Positions 13,079-60,998 of a DNA stretch of 64,000 bases are shown piece by piece. Both the position numbers and the translations under genes were made by a program. Under the pieces are notes generated by a model. That model had not been told where the DNA came from and did not search any database. It worked only from the letters and a program-made list of their open reading frames with translations. Source of the stretch: Mycolicibacterium neworleansense (GTDB lineage Bacteria > Actinomycetota > Actinomycetes > Mycobacteriales > Mycobacteriaceae); contig NZ_CWKH01000001.1 of the NCBI RefSeq assembly GCF_001245615.1, positions 2,108,001 to 2,172,000 of the forward strand, in the 5' to 3' direction. Every line of letters begins with the position of its first letter. The stretch's first letter is position 1.

Positions 13079-13116
13079 GGGTGACGACGCTACAGGCCGC
13101 CGCGCCGACGGATCCG

Positions 13117-17087: not shown

Positions 17088-17121
17088 GGGTAGACCTAAC
17101 CGACAAGTTATTTCGGAAGTG

Positions 17122-17745: not shown

Positions 17746-17811
17746 GGGTTGGCCGGCGCCGGAGCGGCAGGTGCGGCCGGGGCCGCGGGAGCTGCGGGTG
17801 CAGGCGCTGCC

Positions 17812-18597: not shown

Positions 18598-18624
18598 GTC
18601 GACAAGCGTACCGGCGTCGACAGG

Positions 18625-20602: not shown

Positions 20603-20607
20603 GTGAC

Positions 20608-21450: not shown

Positions 21451-21471
21451 TAACGCCACGAGCCGGCCTAC

Positions 21472-23019: not shown

Positions 23020-23099
23020 CGCACACCTCTATGCCTCCCCAGAGGCTAACCGGTCAGCGCAGGCGTCGGTACGTTTTGGTCACGCCCTGGCGAATCAGC

Positions 23100-46455: not shown

Positions 46456-47658
46456 ATGCCCGTTTCGTCCATCAGCACGTTTCGCCGTTGGTCGATGTTG
46501 GCGATCGCACTGACTGCGACCACATGCGCCAACGTGTTCATCAACGGCGCGGCATTCCTCATCCCCACCCTGCACGCCGAGCGGGGCCTGGATCTGGCCA
46601 AGGCCGGCCTGCTGTCGTCGATGCCGAGCTTCGGACTTGTGCTCACCCTGATCGCGTGGGGCTACATCGTCGATCGGGTCGGCGAACGGATCGTGCTCAC
46701 GGTGGGCTCGGCGCTGACCGCCGCGGCGGCGTTCGCGGCGGCCGCCGCGGATTCCCTGGTGGCGGTCGGAATCTTCCTGCTGCTGGGCGGAATGGCCGCA
46801 GCCAGCAGCAATTCGGCAAGTGGGCGGGTCGTGGTCGGTTGGTTCCCACCCGAACAGCGCGGCCTGGCGATGGGAATCCGGCAGACCGCAACACCTTTGG
46901 GTGTCGGTTTGGGCGCGTTGGTGATTCCGCGTCTCGCCGAGACTCACGGCACCGCGACAGCGCTACTGTTCCCGGCGGTGGTGTGTGTGCTGTCGGCGGT
47001 GATCTGCGCTGTGGGAGTGCTGGATCCGCCGCGGCCGCCCCGCCATGAGGCGCCGGCCGAACACCTGGCCAACCCCTACCGCGGCTCGAACGTGTTGTGG
47101 CGCATCCACGCGGTGTCGGTACTGCTGGTCGTCCCCCAGGGTCTGGTCTGGACGTTCACCCTGGTGTGGCTGATGAGTGACCGGGGCTGGTCGGCGGCAT
47201 CGGCCGGGACGCTGGTGACCATCGCTCAATTGCTGGGCGCGGCAGGCCGGATCGCCGCGGGCCGGTGGTCCGATGTCCTCGGAGAACGGCTGCGCCCCAT
47301 CCGGACCATCGCGCTGGCGGCAGCGGCGACGATGGGGCTGCTGGCGCTCACCGATTGGCTGGGCTCACCGCTCAGCGTTGCGCTGATCGTGATCGCCTCG
47401 GTGATCACGGTGTCCGACAACGGCTTGGCGTTCACCGCGATCGCCGAGATCGCCGGCCCGTTCTGGAGCGGGCGCGCCCTGGGCATGCAGAACACCAGCC
47501 AGCATCTGGCAACTGCCAGCTCGGCACCGCTGTTCGGCGCGCTGATCGGGGTGGCGGGCTACCCGGCGGCCTTCGCGGTGTGCGCCCTGTTGCCGTTGCT
47601 GGCGGTGCCACTGGTTCCCCAGGATGCGCGCGTGTGCGAAGAGCATCAGGACACGTGA
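46456..47658 (+). CDS. Major facilitator superfamily transporter
   Basis: 400 aa, about 12 membrane helices. Motif A-like loop GYIVDRVGERIVL between helices 2 and 3 near residue 75, GMGIRQTATPLGVG-like LAMGIRQTATPLGVGLG at helix 4/5. Related to Rv2994, in the same place; substrate unknown, drug or metabolite export both possible. Its stop is five bases from the stop of the convergent RibD-domain gene. Confidence 0.88.
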   Translation: MPVSSISTFRRWSMLAIALTATTCANVFINGAAFLIPTLHAERGLDLAKAGLLSSMPSFGLVLTLIAWGYIVDRVGERIVLTVGSALTAAAAFAAAAADSLVAVGIFLLLGGMAAASSNSASGRVVVGWFPPEQRGLAMGIRQTATPLGVGLGALVIPRLAETHGTATALLFPAVVCVLSAVICAVGVLDPPRPPRHEAPAEHLANPYRGSNVLWRIHAVSVLLVVPQGLVWTFTLVWLMSDRGWSAASAGTLVTIAQLLGAAGRIAAGRWSDVLGERLRPIRTIALAAAATMGLLALTDWLGSPLSVALIVIASVITVSDNGLAFTAIAEIAGPFWSGRALGMQNTSQHLATASSAPLFGALIGVAGYPAAFAVCALLPLLAVPLVPQDARVCEEHQDT

Positions 47659-47678
47659 GCGCTCACGCGCTCATGTCC
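47649..47678. terminator. Bulged hairpin spanning both stop codons of the MFS and RibD-domain genes
   Basis: GGACA-TGAGCGC (47649-47653, 47656-47662) pairs with GCGCTCA-TGTCC (47667-47678) around a TCAC loop, with a two-base bulge. The MFS stop lies in the left arm and the other gene's stop begins in the loop. A shared terminator in the four-base gap. Confidence 0.45.
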
Positions 47679-48268
47679 CCTGTTCCAGGCACACCGTCGG
47701 CGAGCCCGTACCGCAGGAACACGATGCCGTTCGGGCTGGCCACCGGCGGTTGCAGCAGTGTCACATTGGTGGGCACCGAGCCCCCGTCGAACACCTTCTT
47801 CCCCGCTCCCAGCATGATCGGGTGCACCCACAGATCCAGACGGTCGAAGAGCTTCTCGCGCAGCAGCGTCTGAACCAGGTTCAGGCTTCCGACGACCTTC
47901 ACATGCTCGTGCCTGTCCCGGATCTCGCGCACCGCGGCGCCCAGATCCGGGCCGACCTGTGTAGAACCGGCCCATGACAGATCAGGCGTGCCGCGGGAGG
48001 CGACGTATTTCGGGATGCCGTTGAACAGCGTGCCGAATTCGTCCGTCTGGTGCGGCCAGTAGGCGGCGAAGATGTCGTACGTGCGGCGTCCGAGCAGCAG
48101 CGCGTCGGTGCCCTCGTAGGCAGACCCGACCTGCGCGCCGGAAACCTCGTCGATCAGCGGCGCCTGCCAGCCGCCGAACGAAAAGCCCTCGGGGTCCTCG
48201 TCCGGGCCGCCGGGCGCCTGCGCGACGAGGTCCAGGGTGGCGAACAGTTCGATGGCGATGACGCCCAT
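47663..48268 (-). CDS. RibD C-terminal domain (dihydrofolate reductase-like) protein
   Basis: 201 aa. Reductase domain of the RibD/DHFR fold: IAIELFATLDLVAQAPGG, DALLLGRRTYDIFAAYWP, VKVVGSLNLVQTLL and HPIMLGAGKKVFDG. Stand-alone family members bind NADPH; some act on pyrimidine intermediates or antifolates. No deaminase domain. It is absent between Rv2994 and leuB in M. tuberculosis and marks the left edge of the inserted region. Confidence 0.85.
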   Translation of the reverse strand: MGVIAIELFATLDLVAQAPGGPDEDPEGFSFGGWQAPLIDEVSGAQVGSAYEGTDALLLGRRTYDIFAAYWPHQTDEFGTLFNGIPKYVASRGTPDLSWAGSTQVGPDLGAAVREIRDRHEHVKVVGSLNLVQTLLREKLFDRLDLWVHPIMLGAGKKVFDGGSVPTNVTLLQPPVASPNGIVFLRYGLADGVPGTGDMSA

Positions 48269-48355
48269 GGCGCTACTCCCTGCTGAGTTGATGGTCTCGG
48301 TAGAGAGATAGACCCGCGAGCCTCGACAAAGTCATCGGCTCGATCGACCGGAGCC

Positions 48356-48396
48356 GGCACCGCCCTGGCCGTGAACGGCTCACCCCGGGCGGTGCC
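48356..48396. terminator. 10-bp hairpin downstream of the BtpA-like gene
   Basis: GGCACCGCCC (48356-48365) and GGGCGGTGCC (48387-48396) are exact inverted copies; the 21-base loop has an inner GCCGT-GAAC-GGC stem. It lies 14 bases beyond the end of the minus-strand sugar operon and probably terminates it. Confidence 0.5.
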
Positions 48397-48409
48397 GAAT
48401 GTCGGGCGA

Positions 48410-49219
48410 TCAGCTCTGACGGAAGTTCTTCACCACCGCCATCAGCTTCTCGACCCGCTCACTGTCGGCGCGGTTCTCGAACACCCCGTCCTTCTTGAAT
48501 GCGGTGCCGACCACGGCCCCGTCGGCGATGCTCAGCTGCGCCTCGGCGGTCTCCACGCGCATTCCGGTGTTGACAAACACCGGGACATCGCCGGCATTGT
48601 TCTTGACGGTGGACAGAGCAGACGTGTCGGTGGGCGCACCGGCGGTCAGCCCCGAGACGACCAGGGCGTCGGGCTTGGCGTTGAACACCGTGGAACGGGT
48701 GATGTCAGCGAGATCCCGGTCACCGAGATATGCCGTCGCCTCGGGGACCACGTTGAACAACAGACGGACATTGTCCGCATGGACGCGCCGCCGGTGCCGC
48801 GCCGCCTGACCGACGTTGGTGTTCCACAACCCGAAATCGCTGCCGTAGGCGCCGGTGAAGATCTCCCGCACGAACTTCGCGCCGGTCGCGGCAGCGAGGT
48901 CGATCGATGCCACCCCGTCCCACAGCACGTTGACGCCGAACGGCACTCGGACTTCGTCGAGGAGCTCGCCGATGACGCGGGCCATCGCGGTCGCGGTGAT
49001 CGGCTCGGTCTTGGTCAGATACGGCAGGCTGAACTCGTTGGAGAACATCACCGCGTCAACGCCTCCGGACTGAAGTGCATCGAGGTCGCGCCGTGCGTTG
49101 TCGACCACCGCACGCATACCGGCCGCCGTGTCAAAGGACGGATCGCCCGGCAGGGCATCGAGGTGCAGCATGGCGATCACCGGTTTCTGCACACCAAAGA
49201 CGTCGTCAAGCCATTGCAT
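48410..49219 (-). CDS. BtpA/SgcQ family TIM-barrel protein
   Basis: 269 aa from ATG 49219, with AAGAGGAGA upstream. BtpA/SgcQ proteins are small TIM-barrel-like proteins of unsettled function; SgcQ is part of a cryptic sugar operon in E. coli and BtpA was linked to photosystem I in cyanobacteria. Family landmarks: VIAMLHLDALPGDPSF, VDAVMFSNEFSLPY, FVREIFTGAYGSDFG, PDALVVSGLTAGAPTD and VFVNTGMRVETAEAQL. Last gene of the four-gene minus operon. In this setting an aldolase-like, epimerase or scaffold role in sugar breakdown is possible but unproven. Confidence 0.85.
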   Translation of the reverse strand: MQWLDDVFGVQKPVIAMLHLDALPGDPSFDTAAGMRAVVDNARRDLDALQSGGVDAVMFSNEFSLPYLTKTEPITATAMARVIGELLDEVRVPFGVNVLWDGVASIDLAAATGAKFVREIFTGAYGSDFGLWNTNVGQAARHRRRVHADNVRLLFNVVPEATAYLGDRDLADITRSTVFNAKPDALVVSGLTAGAPTDTSALSTVKNNAGDVPVFVNTGMRVETAEAQLSIADGAVVGTAFKKDGVFENRADSERVEKLMAVVKNFRQS

Positions 49220-49250
49220 GTATATCTATCTCCTCTTGTTCTCTTGTCCC

Positions 49251-49973
49251 TCAGGCCAAGCGCTGAATCGTGACTGTCTGGGTGTCGAGGTGGACGCGTC
49301 CCTCCTCGATGTCGCGGGCAAGGTCGTGGTCGAAAATGTGGTACAGGGTGAGCTGTTCGGGAGTCGTCCCGAGTGACGCCACCTTCATGGCCTGGCGCGC
49401 GGCTTTCTCGATGACCGTCGCCGTGAACATCGCATCAGCCAGATCGGGCCCCAGGGCCACCGCACCGTGTCGGGCCATCAGGGCCGCCTTGCTGCCGCCG
49501 GCCAATACCTCGACCATGTTGTCGCCCAGTTCTTTCGATGCGACGACGCCGAATTTTCCACATCGGATCGGACCGAATCCGGCACGGGTGTACGAGTCGA
49601 TGGTGGCGGTGGGAATATCTCGCTCCGCGGCCGCGAAAACCTGCGAATCCTCGGCATGGGTGTGCACGATGGCGTTGGCATCAGGCCGGGCCGCATAGAT
49701 CGCGAGATGCATCGGCAGTTCCACCGTCGGGTCGGTGAGGGACTCCGGCAGGGTGTTGCCATCGGGGTCGACGACTGCGACATCTTCCGGGCGGACGTCT
49801 TTCCAGCTCCGGATCGGCAGCCGATCCGATGGCGCCGGCAGCGCGTAGATGACGTCGTTTTCCCGGTCGAACACGGTGATGTCACCCGAATCCAGACCTG
49901 TGGTGAGGCCGAGATCGACCATTCGCCAACCGCCGTCGGCCACCGCCACCTTGTAGTCGTGCCGGATCTTCAT
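49251..49973 (-). CDS. Class II aldolase/adducin family enzyme (ketose-phosphate aldolase or epimerase)
   Basis: 240 aa from ATG 49973, which overlaps the kinase stop (ATGA) and has GGAGG five bases upstream. FucA/AraD fold: the catalytic Glu in VELPMHLAIY, zinc ligands HTH in AIVHTHAEDS and His in ARHGAVALG. Family members split L-fuculose or L-rhamnulose 1-phosphate into dihydroxyacetone phosphate and lactaldehyde, or epimerise pentulose 5-phosphates. Coupled translation with the FGGY kinase suggests it acts on that kinase's product. An aldolase is favoured over an epimerase only by context. Confidence 0.88.
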   Translation of the reverse strand: MKIRHDYKVAVADGGWRMVDLGLTTGLDSGDITVFDRENDVIYALPAPSDRLPIRSWKDVRPEDVAVVDPDGNTLPESLTDPTVELPMHLAIYAARPDANAIVHTHAEDSQVFAAAERDIPTATIDSYTRAGFGPIRCGKFGVVASKELGDNMVEVLAGGSKAALMARHGAVALGPDLADAMFTATVIEKAARQAMKVASLGTTPEQLTLYHIFDHDLARDIEEGRVHLDTQTVTIQRLA

Positions 49974-51451
49974 CGCGACCTCCGGGTCAACCCGTGCGAA
50001 ATGGGCACCAGCGCATCGCCGGCCTGCCGCCACAGCTGATATGCCTCTTCATAGATCGCCGACCGCTCACGGTCGGGCACCACCGGCGCATCGAACTGCA
50101 GGAATCGCTCGGCATCGTCGAGGCCGAGCACACCGGCGCCCACACCCGCCAGGATGGCGGCGCCCAGCGAGGCTCCGGGATGGTCACGCACCGGCGCCAA
50201 CTCGGTGCCGAGCACATCTGCGTGGATCTGCTTCCACAGGGTGGACTTGCTGCCACCGTTCGTCACCCTGGCCCGCGACAGCGTGATTCCGGCCGATCGC
50301 ATGACTTCGGCGTTGTGCCGGAACCCGAAGGCGATCGCCTCGAGCACCGAGCGATACATGTCCGCCCCGGTGTGGGCCAGCTCGAGGCCGATGAACGCGC
50401 CGCGCAACTGCGGATCGTGGATCGGCGACTTCTCACCGAGGAAGTAGGGCAGGCACAACACCGCGGCGGGTCGGCGCCCGGCGGCCTCGGCGTCCAGATC
50501 GGTCAACGGCGTTCCGCCGATGAGGGTCTGGAACCACCGGATGAGACTGCCGCTGGTGGCCATACAGCCGTTGGGCAGCCAGGTTCCCTGCCGGGGATGC
50601 GCATCGAGGTACAGGCGCGCGTCGACGATGGGATCGGCACAGGCAGTGAGAATGTCGCCGGCACCGCCCAACTTGATCAACCAGTCACCGGCGGTGTCGA
50701 CGCCGGCCGCGTAGGCCGACAACACATGGTCGGCGCCGCCCACCACCAACGCGACATCAGCCGGCAGACCGGTGGTTTCGGCCATCGATGCACTGATCGT
50801 GCCGATCCGGGTGCCGGGCCGGTACACCTCGCACAGCGACGAGGAAGACAGGTCGACGGCCTCGAGCGCCGGCTCGAAGTGTTTTCCGTCGAGGGTGTAG
50901 AGACCGGACTCCAGTGCCCAGTTCTGCTCGACGTGTGGCGGCGCCCCCAACGCGATCAACACATAGTCGTATGACCCGACCAGATAGCGCGTGGCCGACC
51001 AGCATTCGGGCTCGTTGCGCTGCAACCATCGCACCGTCGGCGCCACGGACTGCTGGGTCAGCGCGGATCCGGTGCGGGACAACATGTCCGCGCCGTCGAT
51101 CACCGCCGACAGCTCGTCGATCTCCCGGGTTGCCCTGGCATCGTTCTGCAGGATGGGCCGGCGCACCGGCTTGAGGTCGGCGTCGAGGCAGATCACGGCG
51201 GGAACCATGCCGGTCGCCGAGACCGCAGCCACCATCGCCGGGTCGATCTCCGATTCGGCAAGAACCTGCCGAATTCCCTCTACCGCGTTGGTAACCCAAG
51301 CCGAGGCGTCCGCCTCGGCATATGCCGGCCCGTCCGAGAAGATCGGCGAGCTCAACGTCGCCTGCGCCACGATCCCGGCAGTTTCGTGCAGCAGAACAGT
51401 TTTGGTTCCGGTGGTGCCGATATCGACGCCGATCAGATAGGTGCCCCGCAA
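49970..51451 (-). CDS. FGGY-family carbohydrate kinase
   Basis: 493 aa from the TTG at 51451 (LRGTYLIGVDIGTTGTK), with AGGAGA upstream; a longer frame exists but residues before this point are not conserved. Two-domain actin-fold sugar kinase: phosphate loop DIGTTGTKTV at 10-20, catalytic Asp in GGADHVLSAYAAG near 240, adenosine motif NGGSKSTLWKQIHADVLG near 405. The family covers xylulokinase, glycerol, ribulose, rhamnulose and erythritol kinases; substrate cannot be read from sequence. It overlaps the aldolase by four bases. Moved as part of the minus operon. Confidence 0.9.
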   Translation of the reverse strand: MRGTYLIGVDIGTTGTKTVLLHETAGIVAQATLSSPIFSDGPAYAEADASAWVTNAVEGIRQVLAESEIDPAMVAAVSATGMVPAVICLDADLKPVRRPILQNDARATREIDELSAVIDGADMLSRTGSALTQQSVAPTVRWLQRNEPECWSATRYLVGSYDYVLIALGAPPHVEQNWALESGLYTLDGKHFEPALEAVDLSSSSLCEVYRPGTRIGTISASMAETTGLPADVALVVGGADHVLSAYAAGVDTAGDWLIKLGGAGDILTACADPIVDARLYLDAHPRQGTWLPNGCMATSGSLIRWFQTLIGGTPLTDLDAEAAGRRPAAVLCLPYFLGEKSPIHDPQLRGAFIGLELAHTGADMYRSVLEAIAFGFRHNAEVMRSAGITLSRARVTNGGSKSTLWKQIHADVLGTELAPVRDHPGASLGAAILAGVGAGVLGLDDAERFLQFDAPVVPDRERSAIYEEAYQLWRQAGDALVPISHGLTRRSR

Positions 51452-51500
51452 AGAACTGTCTCCTGTCCAGAGTTCCCGATGCCAGCGCAACGTGTCGCTG

Positions 51501-51531
51501 ACACTAGCCGACAGTGTGAAGAACTATCAAC
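51501..51531. promoter_or_regulatory. Inverted repeat and DeoR-like motif upstream of the kinase
   Basis: The 86-base gap between the phosphatase stop and kinase start has ACACT-n7-AGTGT (51501-51517) and GTGAA-G-AACTATCAAC (51516-51531). A near copy, GTGAA-AACTGTCAAC, lies upstream of deoR (52415-52429). The shared motif suggests a common repressor acts at both places. Confidence 0.4.
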
Positions 51532-51537
51532 CTTCTG

Positions 51538-52338
51538 TTAACAATTCACGTCATTCGCGTTCGGAGCGGTGACCCGAAGCTCGTCGGCCGGCGACGCCGG
51601 TCGCCGCACCCTCAACCCGGCCTCCTCGGCCACCAGCGCCGCAGCCGCCCAGTCGTACTCGCCGAGATGGCTCTCGACATAGCCGTCCAGCGCGCCTTCG
51701 GCAACGGCACAGATCGCAAGCGCGGCCGATCCGAGGGCCCGGGCGTCGGTGTATCCGGCCATCATCTCGGCGGTCAAGCCACATTGCGCCTGCCGGACCT
51801 CGGCCGAGTAGGCATAGCCCATCCCGAGCAGGCGCGCGGCACCGTCGACCCCGGCGGCCGGCCCGGTCAACCGGTACACGCCCGCGCCGTCGGCCAGCCA
51901 CGCCCCGCCACCCCGGTACGCGTAGTAGGTCTTGCCGAGCACCGGCGCGTCGACCGCACCCGCGAGCCACTGTCCGGTGCGGATACAGACCGCACCCACC
52001 GACGTGGCGTAATACGGGATCCCCCTGGTGAAGTTCGTCGTGCCGTCCAGCGGATCGATGGACCACCGGACACGCGCTCCGTCCGGAGCCGTACCCGGCA
52101 GTTCCTCGCCCGTGACGTGGTCGTTCGGCCTGCGATTGCCCAAGACGGCACGCACCGCGCGCTCGGCGGCGACATCCACGTCGGTGACGAGATCGCCCCG
52201 CTCACCCTTGACCGTCACGCTGGCGCTCCCCCGCGGGCGTGAACGCAGAACCGCCGCGCCCGCGCGCGCCGCCTCCAGGGCCACGTCAGCGAGTTCTGCG
52301 GGTTGCTCAGCCGCGCTGCCGTACTGCTCAGAATCCAT
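51538..52338 (-). CDS. Inositol monophosphatase-family phosphatase
   Basis: 266 aa from ATG 52338 with GAAGAGGT upstream; a longer frame is not supported. Mg-dependent phosphatase fold with all ligands: GEEL near 80, IDPLDGTTNF near 98 and the third Asp in EYDWAAAALVAEEAG near 230. Substrates in the family include inositol phosphates, histidinol phosphate, nucleotide phosphates and fructose bisphosphate. First gene of the minus operon, divergent from deoR. It may remove phosphate from a dead-end or product of the sugar pathway. Confidence 0.88.
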   Translation of the reverse strand: MDSEQYGSAAEQPAELADVALEAARAGAAVLRSRPRGSASVTVKGERGDLVTDVDVAAERAVRAVLGNRRPNDHVTGEELPGTAPDGARVRWSIDPLDGTTNFTRGIPYYATSVGAVCIRTGQWLAGAVDAPVLGKTYYAYRGGGAWLADGAGVYRLTGPAAGVDGAARLLGMGYAYSAEVRQAQCGLTAEMMAGYTDARALGSAALAICAVAEGALDGYVESHLGEYDWAAAALVAEEAGLRVRRPASPADELRVTAPNANDVNC

Positions 52339-52374
52339 TTCTGTTACCTCTTCCCATCTCACACCCGGCTATGT

Positions 52375-52387
52375 TAAACATTAACGA
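52375..52387. promoter_or_regulatory. GTTAA-n3-TTAAC palindrome between phosphatase and DeoR gene
   Basis: A 13-bp palindrome in the 120-base divergent region. On the minus strand it overlaps a TAACAT -10-like element for the phosphatase operon. AT-rich palindromes are typical DeoR-type operators. A weak TTGAAA (52402-52407) could be the deoR -35. Binding is inferred. Confidence 0.4.
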
Positions 52388-52414
52388 CATTCGTCCTTGA
52401 GTTGAAACATCACA

Positions 52415-52429
52415 GTGAAAACTGTCAAC
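52415..52429. promoter_or_regulatory. Second copy of GTGAA-AACTGTCAAC motif upstream of deoR
   Basis: Near-identical to the element before the kinase gene (51516-51531), at about 30 bases before the deoR start. Two copies in the same locus, both in non-coding gaps, support an operator of the local DeoR repressor. Confidence 0.4.
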
Positions 52430-52458
52430 TATTCACACATTGTCACAGGGGGTTGCCG

Positions 52459-53229
52459 ATGTCAGTCGAAGAGCGAAGAGCCCTGATCGAAGAGCGGCTG
52501 CGGACTGACGGCGAAGTGGACTTCGCCTCGTTGGCCGAGATGTTCGAGGTCTCGGAGATGACGATTCGGCGCGACATCGATGTTCTCGAAGCCCAAGGTG
52601 CGGTTCGCCGGGTGCGCGGCGGTGCGATTGCCTACTCGCACAAGTCCGAGGAGCCCGCATTCGGGACCCGCGTGGAGTCGGCCACCGCCGAGAAGGCGCA
52701 TATCGCAGCCGCCGCCGTCGAGTTGCTGGAACCACACGAGACCGTCATCATCGACAGCGGCAGCACCGCACTGGCCGTGGCGCACCAGATCCGTGGCCGC
52801 GGACTCGGTTTGACCGTGATCACGCCGAGCGTGCTTGCCGCACTCGAACTCGTCGACGAACCCAACACCACCGTCTTCCTCACCGGCGGCCGAATGAGAC
52901 CGGGCGAGCTCAGCCTCATCGGTTCCGACGCCCAGGCGACCTACCGGCGCTACAACTGCGACACCTATGTCATGGGTGTAGCCGGTGTCGATGCCAAGCG
53001 CGGACTCACCGATTACCACAGCGAGGAAAGCGACGTTAAACGTGCGGCCATGGAGTCCGCCGACCGCGTCATCCTCGCTGTCGACTCCAGCAAGCTCGGA
53101 CGCGTACAGCTGGTCAATATCGCGCCACTGAGCGCGGTGAACACGATCGTGACGGACGGTCCGCACGACGGCCCGGTACTGGAGGCCGCCCGACAGCAAG
53201 GCATCGACGTGCGTGTCGCGCACGAGTGA
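52459..53229 (+). CDS. DeoR-family transcriptional repressor
   Basis: 256 aa from ATG 52459 with CAGGGGG upstream. N-terminal DeoR helix-turn-helix (VDFASLAEMFEVSEMTIRRDIDVLEAQGAVRRVRGG) and C-terminal phosphosugar-sensing DeoRC domain (VIIDSGSTALAVAHQI, GAAGVDAKRGLTDYHSEESDVKRA). DeoR regulators usually sense phosphorylated sugar intermediates. It opens the plus operon and faces the minus operon, so it most likely represses both. Confidence 0.92.
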   Translation: MSVEERRALIEERLRTDGEVDFASLAEMFEVSEMTIRRDIDVLEAQGAVRRVRGGAIAYSHKSEEPAFGTRVESATAEKAHIAAAAVELLEPHETVIIDSGSTALAVAHQIRGRGLGLTVITPSVLAALELVDEPNTTVFLTGGRMRPGELSLIGSDAQATYRRYNCDTYVMGVAGVDAKRGLTDYHSEESDVKRAAMESADRVILAVDSSKLGRVQLVNIAPLSAVNTIVTDGPHDGPVLEAARQQGIDVRVAHE

Positions 53230-53270
53230 CCTCGTCGGCCCCATCGATCACAGTGAGAGAAGGAAGAGCA

Positions 53271-54044
53271 TTGGCGAAGACAGTCGTAGTGACGGGCGCG
53301 GGATCCGGCATCGGTAAGGCCATGGTGACCGAATTGGCGCGCCGGGGGTGGCAGGTCGTCGTGACCGACGTCGACGAGCAGGCGGCCAAAGCCTGTGCCG
53401 AACAACTCGATACCGCGGCCGGCCAGCACCACGAACACCTGCAGCTCGACGTGACCGACCCGGCCGGTGCGGCCAGGGTGGCCGATGACGTCGCCGACCG
53501 CCTCGGGCTGGACGCCTGGGTGAGCAACGCCGGCATCTCGTTCATGGAGCGCTTCCTGGACATGCCGCTGGACCGGGTCGAGAAGACCTTCGACATCAAC
53601 CTCAAGGGCGTGTTCATCTGTGGTCAGGCCGCAGCCCGGGCAATGGTCCGCACCAAGAGCAAGGGCACCATCGTCAACACCGCCTCGATGGGTGGCAAGC
53701 AGGGCCGGGTTCCGTTCCTCAGTGACTACATCGCATCCAAATTCGGCGTCATCGGACTGACCCAGTCGATGGCCTATGAGCTGGCCGAGCACGGCATCAC
53801 CGTCAACAGCATCTGCCCCGGGTATGTCGCCACGCCGATGCAGGAACGCGAACTCGAGTGGGAGGCCTCGTTGCGGGGCACGACCGCCGAAGCGGTGAAA
53901 CAGATGTGGATCGATGACACCCCGCTCGGACGTGTCGAGCAGCCCGAGGACATCGCCAAGGCGCTGACCTTCCTGCTTTCCGAGGACGCCCGGTTCATCA
54001 CCGGCGAGGCACTTGCCGTCAACGGCGGCGCCTTCATGGATTGA
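53271..54044 (+). CDS. Short-chain dehydrogenase/reductase (polyol or acetoin dehydrogenase-like), first
   Basis: 257 aa from the TTG at 53271 with GGAAGAG upstream; a GTG at 53226 overlapping the deoR stop is an alternative. Classical SDR: cofactor TGAGSGIG near 10, NAG near 90, catalytic Ser in TASMGG and YIASK near 150. The acidic VTDVDE after strand 2 indicates NAD. Closest by eye to butanediol/sorbitol/threitol dehydrogenases. It presumably oxidises the imported polyol to a ketose. Confidence 0.88.
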   Translation: MAKTVVVTGAGSGIGKAMVTELARRGWQVVVTDVDEQAAKACAEQLDTAAGQHHEHLQLDVTDPAGAARVADDVADRLGLDAWVSNAGISFMERFLDMPLDRVEKTFDINLKGVFICGQAAARAMVRTKSKGTIVNTASMGGKQGRVPFLSDYIASKFGVIGLTQSMAYELAEHGITVNSICPGYVATPMQERELEWEASLRGTTAEAVKQMWIDDTPLGRVEQPEDIAKALTFLLSEDARFITGEALAVNGGAFMD

Positions 54045-54076
54045 TCACCCACCGAATCAACAGGATTGGAAGGGAT

Positions 54077-55375
54077 ATGGCAGGAACAAGAAAGTGGTTG
54101 TCCTCCGTCGCCGCGCTGTTAGGGGCGACCACATTGGCGCTCGCGGGCTGTTCGAGTTCCGGCCCGGCAAGCGAAAGCGGAAGCGGCGCAGGTGACATTC
54201 CCGCTGACCATGCCGGCACCGTGAAGATCCTCATGGAGGACGAACACGACACCGAAGCGGTCGAATCGCTGCTCGACGGCTTCAAGACGGCGTATCCGAA
54301 CATCAACGTCGAAATCGAGAAGCTTGCCTACGACTCGATGCGCGACAAGCTGGTGGCGTCGTTCCAAGCTCCGCAGGGCACGTACGACCTGATCATGATC
54401 GACAACCCGTGGACCGACGACTTCGTCAACGCCGGATTCCTGGCGCCACTGGACAGCCGGATCGAGACGGCCGGCAAGCTCGACTACGCCGACTTCTACC
54501 CGTCTCTGCGCGGGGTCAACGAGATCGACGGATCCACCTACGGCATCCCGATGTACAACTACGCGCAGGGCTACATCTACCGCGACGACCTGCTGCAGCA
54601 GGCCGGCCTGTCAGTGCCGACCAACCTCGACGAGCTGGTGACGACCGTCAACAAGCTGACGACACCGCAACACGCCGGCATCGCTCATAGCCCGCAGCGC
54701 GGCTACAAGATCCTGGAGGAATGGTCGAGCTGGTATGCCGCGGCCGGTGGGTCGATGTTCGACAAGGACGGCAATCCGACGATCGACACCCCGGAAGCCC
54801 ACAAGGCGCTTCAGGTCTACATCGACACCTTGAAGTCGGCCTCTCCGCCCAACAGCGTCAACTGGGCACAGGACGAGACCATCCGGTCGTTGTCCTCCGG
54901 CGGATCGGCGTCCATCGTCGGATACAACTGGCTGACGTCGAGCCTCAACTCGCCCGAATCCGGTGAGCTGGCCGGCAAGTTCAAGCTGGCACCGATGCCG
55001 GGCGGCCGTGGCGCATTGGGCGTCTGGTCCTGGGCTATCCCGGCCAACTCCAAGGACTCCGACTCCGCCTGGGCGTTCATCTCCTGGATCACCGACAAGG
55101 ACACCGACAAGCAGCGAGTGATGCACGGCGGTGCGCCCACCCGGATCTCGACGGTCGCAGACCCAGAGGTCCGCAAGTCGGGCAACGGTGAAAGCTACTT
55201 CGCCGCGGTGGACGAAATTCTCAAGAACACCGTCCCGTTCGCGCAGGGGCCCAACGCCGAACAGATGGTGCAGGAGGTCGGCACCCAGCTCAACGAAGCG
55301 GTGATCGGCGCCAAGTCCATCGATCAGGCACTGACCGACGCGCAGGCCGCGGCCAACCAGATCACGGGACGCTGA
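54077..55375 (+). CDS. ABC transporter sugar-binding lipoprotein (family 1)
   Basis: 432 aa from ATG 54077 with GGAAGGG upstream. Signal and lipobox LALAGC (Cys about 24) mean it is lipid-anchored outside the membrane. MalE-type fold: AYPNINVEIEKLAYDSM, DNPWTDDFVNAGFLAPLD, YGIPMYNYAQGYIYRDDLL and WAIPANSKDSDSAWAFISWI. It captures the substrate for the following permeases. Substrate unknown; aromatic residues (Trp, Tyr) in the pocket region fit a carbohydrate. Confidence 0.93.
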   Translation: MAGTRKWLSSVAALLGATTLALAGCSSSGPASESGSGAGDIPADHAGTVKILMEDEHDTEAVESLLDGFKTAYPNINVEIEKLAYDSMRDKLVASFQAPQGTYDLIMIDNPWTDDFVNAGFLAPLDSRIETAGKLDYADFYPSLRGVNEIDGSTYGIPMYNYAQGYIYRDDLLQQAGLSVPTNLDELVTTVNKLTTPQHAGIAHSPQRGYKILEEWSSWYAAAGGSMFDKDGNPTIDTPEAHKALQVYIDTLKSASPPNSVNWAQDETIRSLSSGGSASIVGYNWLTSSLNSPESGELAGKFKLAPMPGGRGALGVWSWAIPANSKDSDSAWAFISWITDKDTDKQRVMHGGAPTRISTVADPEVRKSGNGESYFAAVDEILKNTVPFAQGPNAEQMVQEVGTQLNEAVIGAKSIDQALTDAQAAANQITGR

Positions 55376-55436
55376 CCCGGTTTCCGCGGAGCGCTCCCCC
55401 TCCAGCGCTCCGCGGAAACCGCCGAGAGAGAGCACA

Positions 55437-56285
55437 ATGAGAAGGTTTCGCTACGGCATGATGGCGCCGTTCGCAACGGTATTCGCCGTTGCCATCGGTT
55501 TCCCGTTGGTGTACGCCGTGTATCTGAGCTTTGTCGACAAGAAGCTGACCTCGCAGCGACCGGCGCAATTCGTCGGAATCGACAACTACACCAAGGCTTT
55601 TCAGGGAAAATTCATCGGCTCGCTGGGCGTGACGGCGACCTATGTGGTGATCGCGGTTGTTGCCGAACTGGTGCTCGCACTGCTCATCGCACTGGCGCTG
55701 CAGCGGCAGCGCTGGATGAAAGACCTGACCCGCTCGGTCCTGCTGATCCCGATGTTCATCACCCCGATCGCCGTCGCACTGGTATTCCGGTTCCTGCTCA
55801 ACAGCCAACTCGGCGTGATACCCAGCGCATTGCACAAGGTCGGTATCGACCACGATTTCTTCGGCTCCGGCTCGGCGCTGTTCACGCTCATCGCCATCGA
55901 TGTGTGGCAATGGACCCCGTTTCTGGTGCTGCTGTTGGTGGCCGGTCTGGAGTCGATGCCCAAGCAACCGCTCGAAGCCGCCAAGGTCGACGGGGCCAGC
56001 GGTCTGTACACCCTGTTCCGGGTCACCTTGCCGTTGCTGTCACCGGTGCTGACCGTCGCGGTCATGCTGCGTGCGCTCGATGCGCTGAAAGTATTCGAAT
56101 ACGTCTATGCCACCACGCGAGGCGGCCCCGGCACCGAAACGGAGACCATCCAGTACCTGATGTACCAGACCGGGATTCAGTTCTTCCGGCTCGGCGAGGC
56201 GAGCGCCATGGCATGCCTCGTGCTGGCGTTCGTGCTGGCTGTCATCGTCGTCGTCTACCGCCGAATGGAGAAGTCCGCAGCATGA
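55437..56285 (+). CDS. ABC sugar transporter permease 1 (MalF-like)
   Basis: 282 aa, about six membrane helices. The EAA loop that docks on the ATPase is EAAKVDGASGLYTLFRVTLPLLSP. GFPLVYAVYLSFVDKK opens the protein. The stop overlaps the start of the second permease (ATGA). Confidence 0.94.
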   Translation: MRRFRYGMMAPFATVFAVAIGFPLVYAVYLSFVDKKLTSQRPAQFVGIDNYTKAFQGKFIGSLGVTATYVVIAVVAELVLALLIALALQRQRWMKDLTRSVLLIPMFITPIAVALVFRFLLNSQLGVIPSALHKVGIDHDFFGSGSALFTLIAIDVWQWTPFLVLLLVAGLESMPKQPLEAAKVDGASGLYTLFRVTLPLLSPVLTVAVMLRALDALKVFEYVYATTRGGPGTETETIQYLMYQTGIQFFRLGEASAMACLVLAFVLAVIVVVYRRMEKSAA

Positions 56286-57103
56286 GTGACTTTCGGCGCA
56301 AGTCCTTCGGCGCGCTGCGCATCGGGTTCCTCCTCGCCGGCGTCGCCATCGTCGTCCTGCCGTTGGCGTGGATCGCGCTCGCCAGCTTCAAGACGCCGGG
56401 ACAACTCAACGATCCGTGGCTCATCGCGTTCACACCGTCGATGGACAACTGGAATCAGGTGCTCGACAGCACGATCGTCAGCGCCGTCATCCGGAGTGCC
56501 ATCGTCGCGTTCGTGACGGTGGGTGTCAGCATCACGGTGGGCAGCATGGCCGCCTACTCCATCAGCCGCTACAAGACCGGTGGTTCGGCAACGAGATTCG
56601 GCATGCTCGCCGCGCAGGTACTACCGCCGGCGGTCCTGGTGTTCCCCTTCCTCACCGCCGGGTACGCGATGAATCTCAGCGGAACGCTGATCCCGGTCAT
56701 CTTCGCCCACATCAGTTTCGTGCTGCCGTTCGTCACCTGGTTCCTGATCGGGCTGTGGGAAGCGGTTCCCCGGTCCCTGGAGGAGCAGGCCCTCGTCGAC
56801 GGACTCACCCGGTTCGCCGCCTTCCGCAAGGTGATGATTCCCCAGGTCTATCCGGGCATCGGCGCCTCCGCGATCTTCGGCTTCATCCTGTCCTGGAATG
56901 ACATGTTCTACGGGCTCATCCTGGCTCCGAACAACAACCAGCTGCTGCCGGTGGCCATCTCGTCGTTCAATACGTTCCGCGGCGTCGACCTCGGCTCGAT
57001 GAGCGCCGCCATCATCATCTCGATCGTTCCGGTCATCATCGCGGCATTCTTCGTGCAGCGACGCCTGATCCAAGGCATGGGCGGCGGAGCCGTCAAGTTC
57101 TAG
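56282..57103 (+). CDS. ABC sugar transporter permease 2 (MalG-like)
   Basis: 273 aa, ATG at 56282. Six membrane helices and the EAA motif EEQALVDGLTRFAAFRKVMIPQVYPGI. Forms the channel with the preceding permease. FKTPGQLNDPWLIAF is the usual periplasmic segment after helix 1. Confidence 0.94.
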   Translation: MSDFRRKSFGALRIGFLLAGVAIVVLPLAWIALASFKTPGQLNDPWLIAFTPSMDNWNQVLDSTIVSAVIRSAIVAFVTVGVSITVGSMAAYSISRYKTGGSATRFGMLAAQVLPPAVLVFPFLTAGYAMNLSGTLIPVIFAHISFVLPFVTWFLIGLWEAVPRSLEEQALVDGLTRFAAFRKVMIPQVYPGIGASAIFGFILSWNDMFYGLILAPNNNQLLPVAISSFNTFRGVDLGSMSAAIIISIVPVIIAAFFVQRRLIQGMGGGAVKF

Positions 57104-57128
57104 CCGCTTCGGCAATTTTGGAGATCAC

Positions 57129-58181
57129 ATGGCAACAATCACCTTCCGCGATGTGTGCAAGGACTACGGTCACCTGCGCATCGTCGACAACCTCAACCTC
57201 GACCTGCCCGACGGTTCGATGACCGTCCTGGTGGGTCCGTCAGGGTGTGGGAAGTCGACGTCCCTGCGCATGCTGGCCGGACTGGAACCGATCAGTTCCG
57301 GCGACATCTTCATCGGCGAGCGCAATGTCACCCACGTCGACACCAGAGACCGCGACATCGCGATGGTGTTCCAGAACTACGCGCTCTACCCACATCTGAA
57401 TGTGCTGGGCAACATCGCCTTCCCGTTGCGCGCCAAGAAGGTCAAGAAGGCCGAGGCTCACCGACGCGCCCGCGAGGTTGCCGAGTCGATCGGACTCGGC
57501 AGCCTGCTCGATCGGCGGCCCAAGGACCTCAGCGGTGGTCAGCAGCAGCGGGTCGCGATCGCCCGCGCCATCGTCCGGGAGCCGTCGGTGTTCTTGTTCG
57601 ACGAACCGTTGAGCAATCTCGACGCCAAACTGCGGGTGGAAACCCGCACCGAGCTATTGCACATCCAGCGTCGGCTGGGTATCACCTCGTTCTACGTCAC
57701 GCATGACCAGGAAGAGGCGATGACGCTGTCGGATCGTATGGTCGTGATGAGGGAAGGCAGCGTGGCGCAGGCCGGCACCCCCCTGGAGGTGTATTCGAAG
57801 CCGGCGGACACCTTTGTCGCCGCTTTCGTCGGGTCTCCGAAGATGAACTTGATCCCCGGATCCAACGAAACCGGTGGATTCCGAACCGAATCCGGTCTGC
57901 ACCTTGACCTGACCGCCCCGAGCAGCGGTCCCGTGGTACTCGGCGTGCGGCCGGACGACCTGCTGCTCACCCCTGCAGCGGAAGCCACCGCCACCGTGAC
58001 TCTGGTTGAACTGCTTGGACCGCGTGCCATCGTCACCGTCGCGACCGGCGATGTAGAGCTGACGGCGGTGGCCGAGGTCTCACGCCTCAGCGGTGTCACC
58101 CCCGGTGCTGCCGTCAGCTTGCAAGTGCGGCCCGACAGCGCACACTACTTCGATCATTCGACCGGAAAGCGAATCAACTGA
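57129..58181 (+). CDS. ABC sugar transporter ATPase (MsmK/UgpC type)
   Basis: 350 aa. Walker A GPSGCGKST near 38-46, Q-loop VFQNYALYPHL, signature LSGGQQQRVAIARAI, Walker B FLFDEPLSNLD, switch His in VTHDQEEAM. The C-terminal 110 residues are a TOBE/OB regulatory domain (GVRPDDLLL). Complete transporter: this genome cluster does not rely on a shared ATPase. Confidence 0.95.
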   Translation: MATITFRDVCKDYGHLRIVDNLNLDLPDGSMTVLVGPSGCGKSTSLRMLAGLEPISSGDIFIGERNVTHVDTRDRDIAMVFQNYALYPHLNVLGNIAFPLRAKKVKKAEAHRRAREVAESIGLGSLLDRRPKDLSGGQQQRVAIARAIVREPSVFLFDEPLSNLDAKLRVETRTELLHIQRRLGITSFYVTHDQEEAMTLSDRMVVMREGSVAQAGTPLEVYSKPADTFVAAFVGSPKMNLIPGSNETGGFRTESGLHLDLTAPSSGPVVLGVRPDDLLLTPAAEATATVTLVELLGPRAIVTVATGDVELTAVAEVSRLSGVTPGAAVSLQVRPDSAHYFDHSTGKRIN

Positions 58182-58182
58182 G

Positions 58183-59121
58183 ATGGCAACCACATCCAGC
58201 GACGGACCCAACTTGATACTGGGAATCAACACCTGTTTCGCGGTCAAGCGGTGGCCGCAACCCGAGGCGTGGGCCCGCATCGTCACCGAGGAACTGGGGC
58301 TCGACACCGTCCAGCTCAGCTTGGACCTGGTGCCGTTCGGCCTGAACAGGGACGCGATCCGGCGCTACGCCGAACGGGTCCGCACCGCGGCCGACGATTT
58401 CGGTATCAGCATCCACAGTGTGTTCACCGGCCTGGCCGCCTACTCCTCCCCCCTGCTGCTCTCCGAGGACCCGTTCGACCGGGCCGCGGCGTTCGAGTGG
58501 TATCAGGAGATGATCGCCTTCACCGCGGCGGTCGGGGCGACCGGACTCGGCGGGCACATCGGTGCGTTGTCGGTATCGGCGGCTGCCGACCCCACCTTGT
58601 CGAAGACCCTCATCGCCACCGAACTGGACCAGATGCGACGGCTCGCCGAGACCGCCGCCGACGCCGGCCTCGACCACATGCAGTTCGAAAACCTGGCTGT
58701 CACAAGGGAGTACGGACACAGCATCGACGAGGCCCACGCCTTGGAGACCGAACTTGCCGGTACCGCGGTGCCGTGGCGGCTATGCCTGGATCTGGGTCAC
58801 CCGTCATCGCTGACACCCGGGACGCCCAGCGCCGACCCGCTGAGCTGGTTGACCGAGCAGTGGATCAACACCCCGGTAGTTCAGCTTCAGCAGTCTCCCG
58901 TCGGTGCGGATCATCACGGCCCCTTCACCGCGGCGGCCAATGCCTCCGGCACCGTCGACCGCGATGCGGTGCTGGGACGGTTGGCCGGCTGGACGGGTGA
59001 TGTCCATCTGTTCTTCGAGATCATCCATTCGAACGAGTACCCCGACGGCACGGTCCTGGACGAGTTGCGCGAAAGCGTGCAGTTCTGGCGTGCCCGCCTC
59101 GACCGCCTGACCACCGTCTGA
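58183..59121 (+). CDS. Sugar phosphate isomerase/epimerase-like TIM-barrel enzyme
   Basis: 312 aa from ATG 58183, one base after the ATPase stop. Xylose isomerase-like (AP endonuclease 2) fold: metal ligands are likely Glu in MQFENLAVT, Asp/His in CLDLGHPSS and Glu in LFFEIIHSN. VQLSLDLVPFGLNRDAI near the N-terminus is typical of this group, which includes erythrulose-phosphate, tagatose and psicose isomerases and epimerases. It would interconvert the ketose or its phosphate in the pathway. Confidence 0.85.
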   Translation: MATTSSDGPNLILGINTCFAVKRWPQPEAWARIVTEELGLDTVQLSLDLVPFGLNRDAIRRYAERVRTAADDFGISIHSVFTGLAAYSSPLLLSEDPFDRAAAFEWYQEMIAFTAAVGATGLGGHIGALSVSAAADPTLSKTLIATELDQMRRLAETAADAGLDHMQFENLAVTREYGHSIDEAHALETELAGTAVPWRLCLDLGHPSSLTPGTPSADPLSWLTEQWINTPVVQLQQSPVGADHHGPFTAAANASGTVDRDAVLGRLAGWTGDVHLFFEIIHSNEYPDGTVLDELRESVQFWRARLDRLTTV

Positions 59122-59132
59122 ACGGAGCTCAC

Positions 59133-59897
59133 ATGGAAACGGGCCTGCGCGACTCAGTAGCCTTCGTCACCGGGGGCGGCACGGGGATCGGACGGTCTAC
59201 GGCGCTGGCGCTGGCTGCCGAAGGAGCGGCCGTCGCCGTCGCCGATATCCACATCGAATCCGCCCGGGCCACCGCGGCGGAACTCATCGTGCAGGGCGCC
59301 GAAGCCATTGCCGTACAGGCAGATGTGAGCGACGAGGAGTCGGTGGCCGAGGCAGTGGCCACCACCGTCCACGAACTCGGCAGCCTCGACTCATTGGTGT
59401 TGTGCGCCGGTATCTCCGGGCTGTACGGCCGATCGATCGACGAGATCAGCACCGGCGAGTGGGACCGCATGTTCGACATCAACGTGAAAGGCCAGTGGCT
59501 GCCGGTCAAACATGCACTCCCGTTCCTGCGCCTCAGTTCCACGGCCTCGGTCACGATCGTCGCCTCCGATTCCGCGCTTGTCGCCTCACCGCTGCACGTG
59601 CCGTACTGCGCGTCCAAGGGCGCGCTGATCATGATGGTCAATGCCATGGCTGTCGATCTGCGGGCCGACGGCATCCGGGTGAATTGCGTGTGCCCGAGCG
59701 TGGTGAACACCCGAATGCCCAAGAACGACGTCGGTTTGTCCGACGACGCCGATCTCGGCGACAGTTACCCGATCCACGAGCCCGAGGACATCGCCCGTTA
59801 CCTGACGTTCCTCGCCTCGCCTGCCGCGGCCACCATCAGCGGACACGCTCTCGTCGCCGATTTCGGATTCGTCGGACAGTCCTCGTTCCCGATGTGA
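59133..59897 (+). CDS. Short-chain dehydrogenase/reductase, second
   Basis: 254 aa. TGGGTGIG near 14, CAG (in place of NAG) in VLCAGISGLYG, catalytic Ser in VASDSALV and YCASK near 155; acidic ADIHIE after strand 2 indicates NAD. Only moderately similar to the first SDR of the operon, so it probably handles another intermediate or stereoisomer. Last gene of the plus operon. Confidence 0.9.
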   Translation: METGLRDSVAFVTGGGTGIGRSTALALAAEGAAVAVADIHIESARATAAELIVQGAEAIAVQADVSDEESVAEAVATTVHELGSLDSLVLCAGISGLYGRSIDEISTGEWDRMFDINVKGQWLPVKHALPFLRLSSTASVTIVASDSALVASPLHVPYCASKGALIMMVNAMAVDLRADGIRVNCVCPSVVNTRMPKNDVGLSDDADLGDSYPIHEPEDIARYLTFLASPAAATISGHALVADFGFVGQSSFPM

Positions 59898-59912
59898 CGC
59901 ACGAGCTGTCAT

Positions 59913-59970
59913 CGACTCTGCGATGAGAGCGGAGAAGTGCGAGAGACCAACGCCCTCACCGCAGAGTCGA
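59913..59970. terminator. Long inverted repeat between SDR2 and convergent leuB
   Basis: TCGACTCTGCG (59913-59923) is exactly complementary to CGCAGAGTCGA (59960-59970), with TGAG/CTCA pairing continuing inside after one mismatch. It lies in the 90-base gap between convergent genes; a terminator is the best reading despite the long loop. Confidence 0.4.
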
Positions 59971-59987
59971 CCTCAAAAGCCAACGTC

Positions 59988-60998
59988 TTACAGCAGCGAC
60001 AGGATCCGCTCGCCGACCTCGCTGGTCGAGAGGTTCGCGTCCCCGCGGGTGGCCAGGTGCTCGGAGACCGCCTTGTCGACACGCGCGGCGGCGTCGGTCT
60101 CACCGATGTGGGCGAGCAGCAGCGCCACGCTCATCACGGCGGCGGTCGGATCGGCGATCCCCTGCCCCGCGATGTCGGGTGCGCTGCCGTGCACCGGCTC
60201 GAACATCGACGGATTGGTCCGTGTCGCATCGATATTGCCGCTCGCGGCCAGCCCGATGCCACCGCACACCGCCGCCGACAGGTCGGTGATGATGTCGCCG
60301 AACAGGTTGTCGGTGACGATCACGTCGAACCGGCCCGGATCGGTGACCATGTGGATGGTCGCCGCGTCGATGTGCTGGTAAGCCACCTCGACCTCGGGAT
60401 ATTCGTTACCGACCTCGGCCACCACACGGGCCCACAGACTGCCGGCGAAGGTCAGCACATTGGTCTTGTGCACCAGGGTCAGGTGCTTGCGCCGCGATTG
60501 TGCGCGGGCGAAGGCGTCCCGCACCACGCGCTCGACGCCGAACGCGGTGTTGACGCTGACCTCGGTGGCCACCTCGTGCGGCGTGCCGACGCGCAGTGCG
60601 CCGCCGTTGCCGGTGTAGGGGCCCTCGGTGCCTTCACGCACCACGACGAAGTCGATCTCCGACACGCCTGAAAGTGGGCTGCTGACACCGGGATACAACC
60701 GGCCGGGCCTCAGGTTGACGTGGTGATCGAGCGCGAACCGCAGCTTGAGCAGCAGGCCGCGCTCCAGGACACCGCTGGGCACCGACGGATCACCGATGGC
60801 GCCGAGCAGGATCGCGTCGTAGCCGCGCAGTTCCTCGATCGTCTCGGAGGTGAGCAGTTCCCCGGTCGCGTGGTAGCGCCGCGCTCCCAGGTCGTACTCG
60901 GTCCGGTCCACGCCGGGCAGCACCGCATCCAGCACCTTGAGCGCCTCGGCGATGACCTCCGGACCGATGCCGTCACCGGCGATTACAGCGAGTTTCAT
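59988..60998 (-). CDS. leuB: 3-isopropylmalate dehydrogenase
   Basis: 336 aa. Oxidative decarboxylation of 3-isopropylmalate, the third leucine step. [15 protein letters not shown] at the start, [27 protein letters not shown] and [18 protein letters not shown] are the family sites. Start overlaps the serA stop by four bases. Rv2995c equivalent; works with LeuCD encoded 18 kb away. Confidence 0.96.

Follow-up and report, generated by a model that had tools for sequence, protein, structure and literature searches.

Within a 64,000-nucleotide stretch of the genome of Mycolicibacterium neworleansense (contig NZ_CWKH01000001.1; hereafter, the window), we analyzed a cluster of twelve genes at 48410-59897 whose products point to the uptake and breakdown of a polyol. 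The source genome amounts to 6.29 Mb in 9 contigs, with M. houstonense and M. peregrinum as near kin. The cluster consists of two divergent operons, four genes on the minus strand and eight on the plus strand, which part at 52339-52458. From the middle outward, the minus-strand genes encode a phosphatase of the inositol monophosphatase family (IMPase), an FGGY kinase, a class II aldolase and a BtpA/SgcQ protein; the plus-strand genes encode, in order, a DeoR-family regulator, a short-chain dehydrogenase (SDR1), a solute-binding protein, two permeases, a UgpC-type ATPase, a TIM barrel and a second short-chain dehydrogenase (SDR2) (Table 1). Every product was assigned by Pfam above the curated cut-off (the two permeases at 56 and 55 bits), bearing out the inventory that a first-pass annotation of this DNA had proposed, and its suggestion of a polyol-type importer found support as well. 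An NCBIfam scan of ten of the proteins, the two permeases being left out, yielded, among the matches listed, scores above cut-off for BtpA (BtpA/SgcQ) and the ATPase (UgpC, by 0.8 bits) only. The catalytic motifs are intact, including YxxxK in both dehydrogenases, GGADH in the FGGY kinase, DPLDGTTN in the IMPase and E169/D203/H206/E279 in the TIM barrel. G+C content is 62.6-64.5% across 52-58 kb, compared with ~67% for the window.

Table 1. Genes and operator-like sites of the cluster and the adjoining RibD_C gene (positions are those of the window; ORF, open reading frame).
Feature	Position	Strand	Evidence and remarks
RibD_C-domain reductase-like gene	47663..48268	-	Pfam RibD_C 54.5 bits; in the inserted block, not in the first-pass annotation
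BtpA/SgcQ family protein	48410..49219	-	Pfam BtpA 284 bits; TIGR00259 301.5
Class II aldolase family protein	49251..49973	-	Pfam Aldolase_II 112 bits; no NCBIfam model over cut-off among the matches listed
FGGY carbohydrate kinase, XylB-like	49970..51451	-	Pfam FGGY_N/FGGY_C 120/102; start codon uncertain
Operator-like site 3	51536..51550	+	Ahead of the FGGY gene; overlaps the 3' end of the IMPase gene
Inositol-monophosphatase-family phosphatase	51538..52338	-	Pfam Inositol_P 149.5 bits; DPLDGTTN
Operator-like site 1, TGTTAAACATTAACGACA	52372..52389	+	Divergent promoter region; core invariant in 5/5 aligned loci
Operator-like site 2	52423..52437	+	Divergent region; degenerate pattern
DeoR-family regulator	52459..53229	+	Pfam DeoRC 161.8 and HTH_DeoR 54.9 bits
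SDR1, short-chain dehydrogenase	53226..54044	+	Pfam adh_short_C2 194 bits; YIASK; start codon uncertain
Solute-binding lipoprotein of importer	54077..55375	+	Pfam SBP_bac_1 137 bits (ORF from 54041); nearest solved chain 5iai
Importer permease 1, MalF-type	55437..56285	+	Pfam BPD_transp_1
Importer permease 2, MalG-type	56282..57103	+	BPD_transp_1 on ORF from 55904; homologous part starts ~56282
Importer ATPase, UgpC/MalK-type with TOBE	57129..58181	+	ABC_tran 116, TOBE_2 38, OB_MalK; NF008653 432.8 (cut-off 432)
Xylose-isomerase-like TIM barrel, EryC-related	58183..59121	+	AP_endonuc_2 46.5 bits; nearest solved chains 4k3z, 3qxb
SDR2, short-chain dehydrogenase	59133..59897	+	adh_short_C2 172.5 bits; absent from the G977 locus

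Nine of the twelve genes, encoding DeoR, an SDR, the FGGY kinase, BtpA, the four importer components and the IMPase, constitute a core that recurs elsewhere. BtpA was matched in 52 of 198 genomes of the genus (E 1e-20), three of them of the window type and 49 others (a single match apiece in the window, G021 and G128), and 13 of these 49 were examined as sister loci over 19.9 kb each (L045-L057). DeoR, FGGY, SDR1, BtpA and all four importer genes were found in 13/13 of them and the IMPase in 9/13, with gene gaps of 11-208 bp in the three loci measured, and neither the class II aldolase nor the TIM barrel was present in any. Identities between sister and window proteins were as follows: BtpA, 69-74%; SDR1, 65-73%; FGGY, 61-63%; binding protein, 51-55%; IMPase, 46-50%. 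The core was also found in 7 of 12 plasmid regions sampled for matches to the binding protein, the TIM barrel, BtpA or 5iai, namely those of Thermus (L058), Salipiger (L059), Shinella (L060), Labrenzia (L068) and Rhizobium (L067, L125 and L126). The phosphatase of these loci is annotated as HAD in L059, L060, L068 and L126, with none seen in L058, L067 and L125, and the Thermus core includes a TIM-barrel gene without detectable similarity to that of the window. Among the other regions, Shinella L061 lacks BtpA and FGGY and has an isomerase gene, an importer and two SDRs, and Phyllobacterium L062 holds importer parts, a 35% relative of the TIM barrel and pieces of FGGY, with no match to BtpA or SDR1. 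The description of an unassigned twelve-gene system was thus accurate as to the genes and overstated as to their isolation, since nine of them form a core shared by mycobacteria, alphaproteobacteria and Thermus. Our searches of open-licence papers, none of them aimed at BtpA alone, brought up no experimental work on this combination of DeoR, SDR, FGGY, BtpA and importer.

The cluster lies in an inserted block of ~12.3 kb (~47619-59988, delimited by blastn against relatives), with a major facilitator superfamily (MFS) gene and leuB on either side; the block also holds the RibD_C gene, beside the polyol genes. Of 17 leuB neighbourhoods found in other members of the genus, 16 were compared (one of these, L114, is only 3.8 kb long), and neither the cluster nor the RibD_C gene was found in any of the 16, in agreement with the insertion proposed earlier. 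In all 16 the MFS gene keeps its side of leuB, less than 700 bp away in 13 and up to 3.3 kb away in three. One genome, G020 (L104 6512-8634), with flanks 86-88% identical, carries LysR-family and Cons_hypoth698 genes at the same site, so that the site takes varied cargo. It resembles a small integration hot spot; the nearest tRNA of the window is some 5 kb off.

The enlarged locus is rare. Of 396 genomes of the genus, 7 have the aldolase, and of 198 searched for the TIM barrel, 4 have it, the window's own included in both counts, and a synteny comparison recovered the full set of twelve genes at the MFS-leuB site in six of the 396 (the window, G021, G128, G958, G1022 and G1024), the nine-gene core being far wider. 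G021 and G1024 carry blocks that match the window's at 89-91% identity, with flanks at 88-89%. Chance reading frames or decayed genes were rejected as an explanation for the window: all twelve frames are open, the motifs are intact and the proteins are 86-100% identical across the genomes sharing the site. Two small blemishes were seen in other genomes: the DeoR gene of M. houstonense (L006/L078) was matched in two frames, and the TIM match of G128 crosses one TGA. A seventh genome, G977, carries eleven of the genes at another site, without SDR2 (only general SDR matches of 27-31% in L115) and with no MFS, leuB or serA match within its stretches examined. In G172 (L043 10625-13186), nothing more is present than a piece of one permease, the TIM barrel and the ATPase, as if a copy had decayed or been rearranged.

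Further afield, a TIM-barrel profile search of 394 genomes of the class returned the window and one distant match (G451, 35%), whose 20 kb stretch holds none of the other cluster genes, and an aldolase search of 396 genomes of the phylum at E 1e-50 returned nothing beyond the window. At least seven contigs appear to be common to the listed TIM and FGGY homologues, Beutenbergiaceae and Microbacterium among them, and this recurrence suggests that these taxa carry loci combining TIM and FGGY. In a FastTree phylogeny of 44 kinases, those of the window, of G977 and of the seven contigs apparently shared with the listed TIM homologues fell into one clade of 20 (support 0.86), with an inner group of 16 at support 1.0, and Beutenbergiaceae and Microbacterium members were included. 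The four mycobacterial sister kinases in the tree all fell outside this clade, and the placement of the window among its nearest kin was unsupported (0.11). Because the window kinase groups apart from the sister kinases, the extended system was probably acquired by a few mycobacterial hosts, rather than having grown out of the sister locus.

In the divergent promoter region, site 1, TGTTAAACATTAACGACA, has a single match at up to 3 mismatches in the 64 kb, with 0 expected, for a site chosen after the data were seen; it is kept in all window-type loci examined, with two substitutions in G977. Sites 2 and 3 are related to it. A degenerate pattern, also post hoc, has three matches in the window, all in the cluster, compared with 0.25 expected, and a relative of the site with 4-5 mismatches stands 80-100 bp before the DeoR match in 7/13 sister loci (best three matches per locus). 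These sites may be DeoR operators, a lead to be read knowing that the pattern was drawn up after the sites were seen.

The importer has the composition of the CUT1 class: a binding protein, two permeases and a MalK/UgpC-type ATPase with a TOBE domain. The ATPase motif of this class is G[IV]RPE[DH] (PMC11519228), and that of the window, GVRPDD, fits it at 5 of 6 positions, with Asp for Glu. Among solved structures, the binding protein comes closest to 5iai (135 bits), which is used as a ribitol crystal structure in the available part of a paper analysing ribitol structures (PMC8468352). Since relatives of 5iai at 93% and 77% sit inside rhizobial core loci, a core-type importer probably binds ribitol, and for the window a pentitol-like substrate is our best guess. 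In L125 (R. leguminosarum pRLN4, 7904-25766), L126 (1342-22637) and L059 (10106-13606), the core is accompanied by isochorismatase-type hydrolases and allophanate hydrolase, to which L125 and L126 add amidohydrolases and oxidases of amide- and ring-degrading character. By their gene content, these three loci look like systems for degrading a ribityl N-heterocycle (flavin-like or ribitylaminouracil) to feed the ribitol core; with isochorismatase-type, allophanate hydrolase and amidohydrolase genes adjoining, the true substrate of the rhizobial loci may be a larger ribityl compound. Given this idea, the RibD_C gene in the window's block may be no coincidence.

The kinase belongs to the FGGY family; its best NCBIfam match, TIGR01312 (XylB), scored 274.6, under the cut-off of 380.25. 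Its nearest solved chain, 3ifr, is listed under xylulose kinase in the part of an FGGY survey available to us (PMC3245297). The TIM barrel is nearest to 4k3z (97.5 bits), deposited as 'D-erythrulose 4-phosphate dehydrogenase', and to 3qxb, and several of its homologues at 49-53% bear the JGI label D-erythrulose 1-phosphate 3-epimerase. Its residues E169, D203, H206 and E279 are invariant in 28/28 rows of an alignment (A1) of the window with 27 of 120 listed homologues, and we propose that it is an EryC-related 3-epimerase of a ketose or ketose phosphate. The dehydrogenases matched 228 (SDR1) and 223 (SDR2) NCBIfam families, none above cut-off among the best 25 for each. The nearest solved chain to SDR1 is the quinuclidinone reductase 3ak4 (198.8 bits; the next scored 151.5), which, being the nearest solved relative of SDR1, may itself be a polyol dehydrogenase by nature; for SDR2 the nearest chains form a mixed list.

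The window BtpA scored above the TIGR00259 cut-off (301.5 bits compared with 153.4) and below that of NF045918, the model of photosystem I biogenesis BtpA proper (149.4 bits, cut-off 400). Its AlphaFold2 model (pLDDT 87.3) matches phosphosugar barrels, and it is predicted to be a phosphate-binding TIM barrel, which we propose acts on a phosphorylated intermediate. The first-pass annotation had listed this protein and given it no role, even though the core loci lack the aldolase and the fold is predicted to be phosphosugar-barrel-like. No reaction assigned to BtpA/SgcQ was found in our searches of open-licence papers, none of which was aimed at BtpA alone. In two alphaproteobacterial regions (L064 5013-9822 and L065 5205-9822), the BtpA gene, whose product shares 64-66% identity with that of the window, adjoins genes for a sugar isomerase, a PIG-L deacetylase, a Gfo/Idh oxidoreductase and a hydrolase, with no kinase, which points to a different BtpA pathway.

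The aldolase alignment has 13 rows: five window-type proteins and eight comparators hand-picked for variety, of which six came from the 506 plasmid records that matched and two from the 15 that matched in the phage collection; a ninth comparator, from S. medicae (L124), was read separately, outside the alignment. These 15 phage-collection matches, all distant and several of them bacterial contigs, came from a weak look for a phage link. The histidines H104, H106 and H169, which we take to be the metal ligands of FucA/RhaD-type aldolases, are present in 13/13 rows, and E85, presumably their catalytic residue, in every row except that of the UlaF epimerase (L123), which has Asp at what we take to be the catalytic acid position of AraD/UlaF 4-epimerases. 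The residues that presumably bind phosphate in FucA (GN, a Ser/Thr loop and Ser-Ser) are altered. The GN motif reads GD in 5/5 window-type proteins and GN in 9/9 comparators, the loop that follows is PAPS or PSPS with a 6-residue insert in 5/5, and Ser-Ser is replaced by Thr-Val (PTV) in 5/5, compared with a first-position Ser in 8/9 comparators and, among the eight aligned, a second-position Ser in six, Asn in one and Thr in one; Val stands there in none of the nine. Two solved aldolase stretches match the comparators at these motifs. L124 keeps GN and a TPT loop and has PTKE in place of PSSE; because it reads PTK, the Ser-Ser change alone carries less weight, and GD, the insert and Val are confined to the window-type aldolases among those compared. 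An AlphaFold2 model of the aldolase, built from four near-identical sequences, reached a pLDDT of 33.4 and was not used.

These data bear on the earlier proposal that the pathway yields dihydroxyacetone phosphate (DHAP) plus an aldehyde, whereby the FGGY kinase would make a ketose 1-phosphate, the aldolase would cleave it in the manner of FucA/RhaD and SDR2 would oxidise or reduce the aldehyde. In favour of that proposal, E85, H104, H106, H169 and Y128 of the FucA type are all kept, where the UlaF comparator has Asp for Glu; the best NCBIfam matches of the protein include models of fuculose-phosphate and ribulose-1-phosphate aldolases, far under cut-off, the FGGY gene shares 4 bases with the aldolase gene, and Ser-Ser is not universal, as L124 shows. 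Furthermore, the genome has no match to a Dak1-type dihydroxyacetone kinase, which makes free dihydroxyacetone an awkward product and DHAP a tidier one. The phosphate pocket, however, tells against it, with GD, the rebuilt loop and Thr-Val in all five window-type proteins, as does a kinase nearest to XylB, a maker of 5-phosphates according to the available part of the FGGY survey (PMC3245297), and we consider this route doubtful.

In a second alternative, SDR1 and FGGY would lead to a ketopentose 5-phosphate, which the TIM barrel as a 3-epimerase and the aldolase homologue as an AraD/UlaF-like 4-epimerase would convert to D-xylulose 5-phosphate. The XylB-like kinase and the ribitol-holding nearest relative of the binding protein fit this scheme, and the top NCBIfam match of the aldolase is PRK06557, 'L-ribulose-5-phosphate 4-epimerase' (86.9 bits, cut-off 251). 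Yet 5/5 window-type proteins have Glu at the catalytic acid position, like the aldolase comparators and unlike UlaF with its Asp, and the GN and PSS motifs of the UlaF comparator are both changed in the window, so we regard this scheme as unlikely. Least probable is a tetritol route akin to the erythritol and threitol pathways, with the EryC-like barrel epimerising an FGGY-made tetrulose phosphate, for although 4k3z and the D-erythrulose 1-phosphate 3-epimerase labels suggest it, the similarity to 4k3z is modest, the block holds no EryB-, TpiB- or RpiB-type gene and a class II aldolase would have no place there.

We read the locus, rather, as a DeoR-controlled polyol utilisation system in which a nine-gene core is enlarged by three genes, and we give this reading, with the steps below, an even chance. 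The binding protein, the permeases and the UgpC-type ATPase would import a polyol (a pentitol or a similar compound is most likely), and SDR1 would oxidise it to a ketose. The FGGY kinase would phosphorylate the ketose, likelier at its far end, as XylB does, than at C1, and in core systems BtpA would act on the phosphorylated product. In the window's variant, the EryC-like barrel would epimerise the ketose or ketose phosphate and the aldolase would perform a metal-dependent retro-aldol or related cleavage, with the substrate phosphate held outside the usual FucA pocket. SDR2 may handle a product or a second substrate, the IMPase-type phosphatase may remove misphosphorylated by-products, and DeoR would repress both operons through the shared-promoter sites until a phosphate ester of the pathway binds to it. 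What we observed is the gene content, its conserved order, the intact catalytic motifs, the conservation of the operator-like sites and the changed phosphate-pocket motifs; the reactions, the sequence in which they follow and the substrate are all inferred from these.

Several observations weigh against this reading. The binding protein shows low similarity to 5IAI and is the least conserved part of the importer (51-55% identity to its sisters), so that ligands may differ between loci. The barrel matches of BtpA tie with one another and single out no reaction. Nor is BtpA tied to FGGY products, for three regions that lack both FGGY and SDR (L064, L065 and L066, the last being the sgc operon) hold a BtpA 63-66% identical to that of the window. 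In S. meliloti, the fucA of the erythritol locus was dispensable for all three polyols, as the accessible part of that report has it (PMC3599248), and by analogy the window aldolase may be a passenger. The variation seen in L124 indicates that the Ser-Ser position differs among class II aldolases, and the lack of a Dak1 match counts against the scheme if cleavage frees dihydroxyacetone.

Among known systems, we take the sorbitol dehydrogenase encoded by smoS in the sorbitol/mannitol (smo) locus of Sinorhizobium meliloti to be of the SDR class, the erythritol locus of the same species to have a kinase of the FGGY class and an importer of another type than the window's, and the M. smegmatis threitol/erythritol pathway to use DAK-type kinases and to be without FGGY, BtpA and class II aldolase. 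The smo locus comprises a DeoR-type regulator, four importer genes and a sorbitol dehydrogenase, and may also include a putative phosphatase hydrolase and a putative carbohydrate kinase (PMC10433430, as far as the available text goes). The window likewise joins DeoR, four importer genes and an SDR in one locus, with SDR1 a putative polyol dehydrogenase; in contrast, the accessible portion of that source describes a mannitol dehydrogenase, and no BtpA, aldolase or EryC-like barrel, in smo (PMC10433430). The S. meliloti locus for erythritol, adonitol and L-arabitol (eryABC, lalA, rbtABC, fucA1) is similar in combining a polyol importer, dehydrogenases, a sugar kinase, EryC and a fucA gene, and differs in its EryB, TpiB and RpiB enzymes, with BtpA unmentioned in the part of the report at hand (PMC3599248). 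The M. smegmatis route, a mycobacterial polyol pathway too, proceeds through erythrulose and erythrulose 4-phosphate and differs in entering metabolism as erythrose 4-phosphate, in the available portion of its description (PMC12780249), and the difference from this route that the first-pass annotation had pointed out is upheld. Finally, the sgc operon of E. coli and Salmonella (L066) has a BtpA/SgcQ 62-63% identical to the window's and a DeoR regulator, and differs in its import by a phosphotransferase system, a ribulose-phosphate-3-epimerase-like gene and an M42 peptidase, with no SDR or FGGY annotated alongside.

As sugar-alcohol loci are common, the locus as such is not startling; the useful point is that BtpA/SgcQ is repeatedly found together with an FGGY kinase and a dehydrogenase in distant phyla. 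We tentatively raise the possibility, one we would not yet favour, that BtpA/SgcQ is an aldolase- or epimerase-like enzyme of phosphosugar-barrel type that joins an FGGY-made ketose phosphate to central metabolism, that the core loci from Thermus to mycobacteria are one polyol pathway, and that the rebuilt-pocket aldolase and the EryC-like barrel of the window extend it to a further substrate. A close relative of the binding protein of one core locus has already been solved with ribitol, and the role of BtpA/SgcQ is thus open to assay. The window aldolase, with its altered phosphate-pocket motifs, is of possible use in aldol chemistry on unusual substrates. As an enlarged version of a widespread polyol-type core, the locus may help to reveal what BtpA/SgcQ proteins do.

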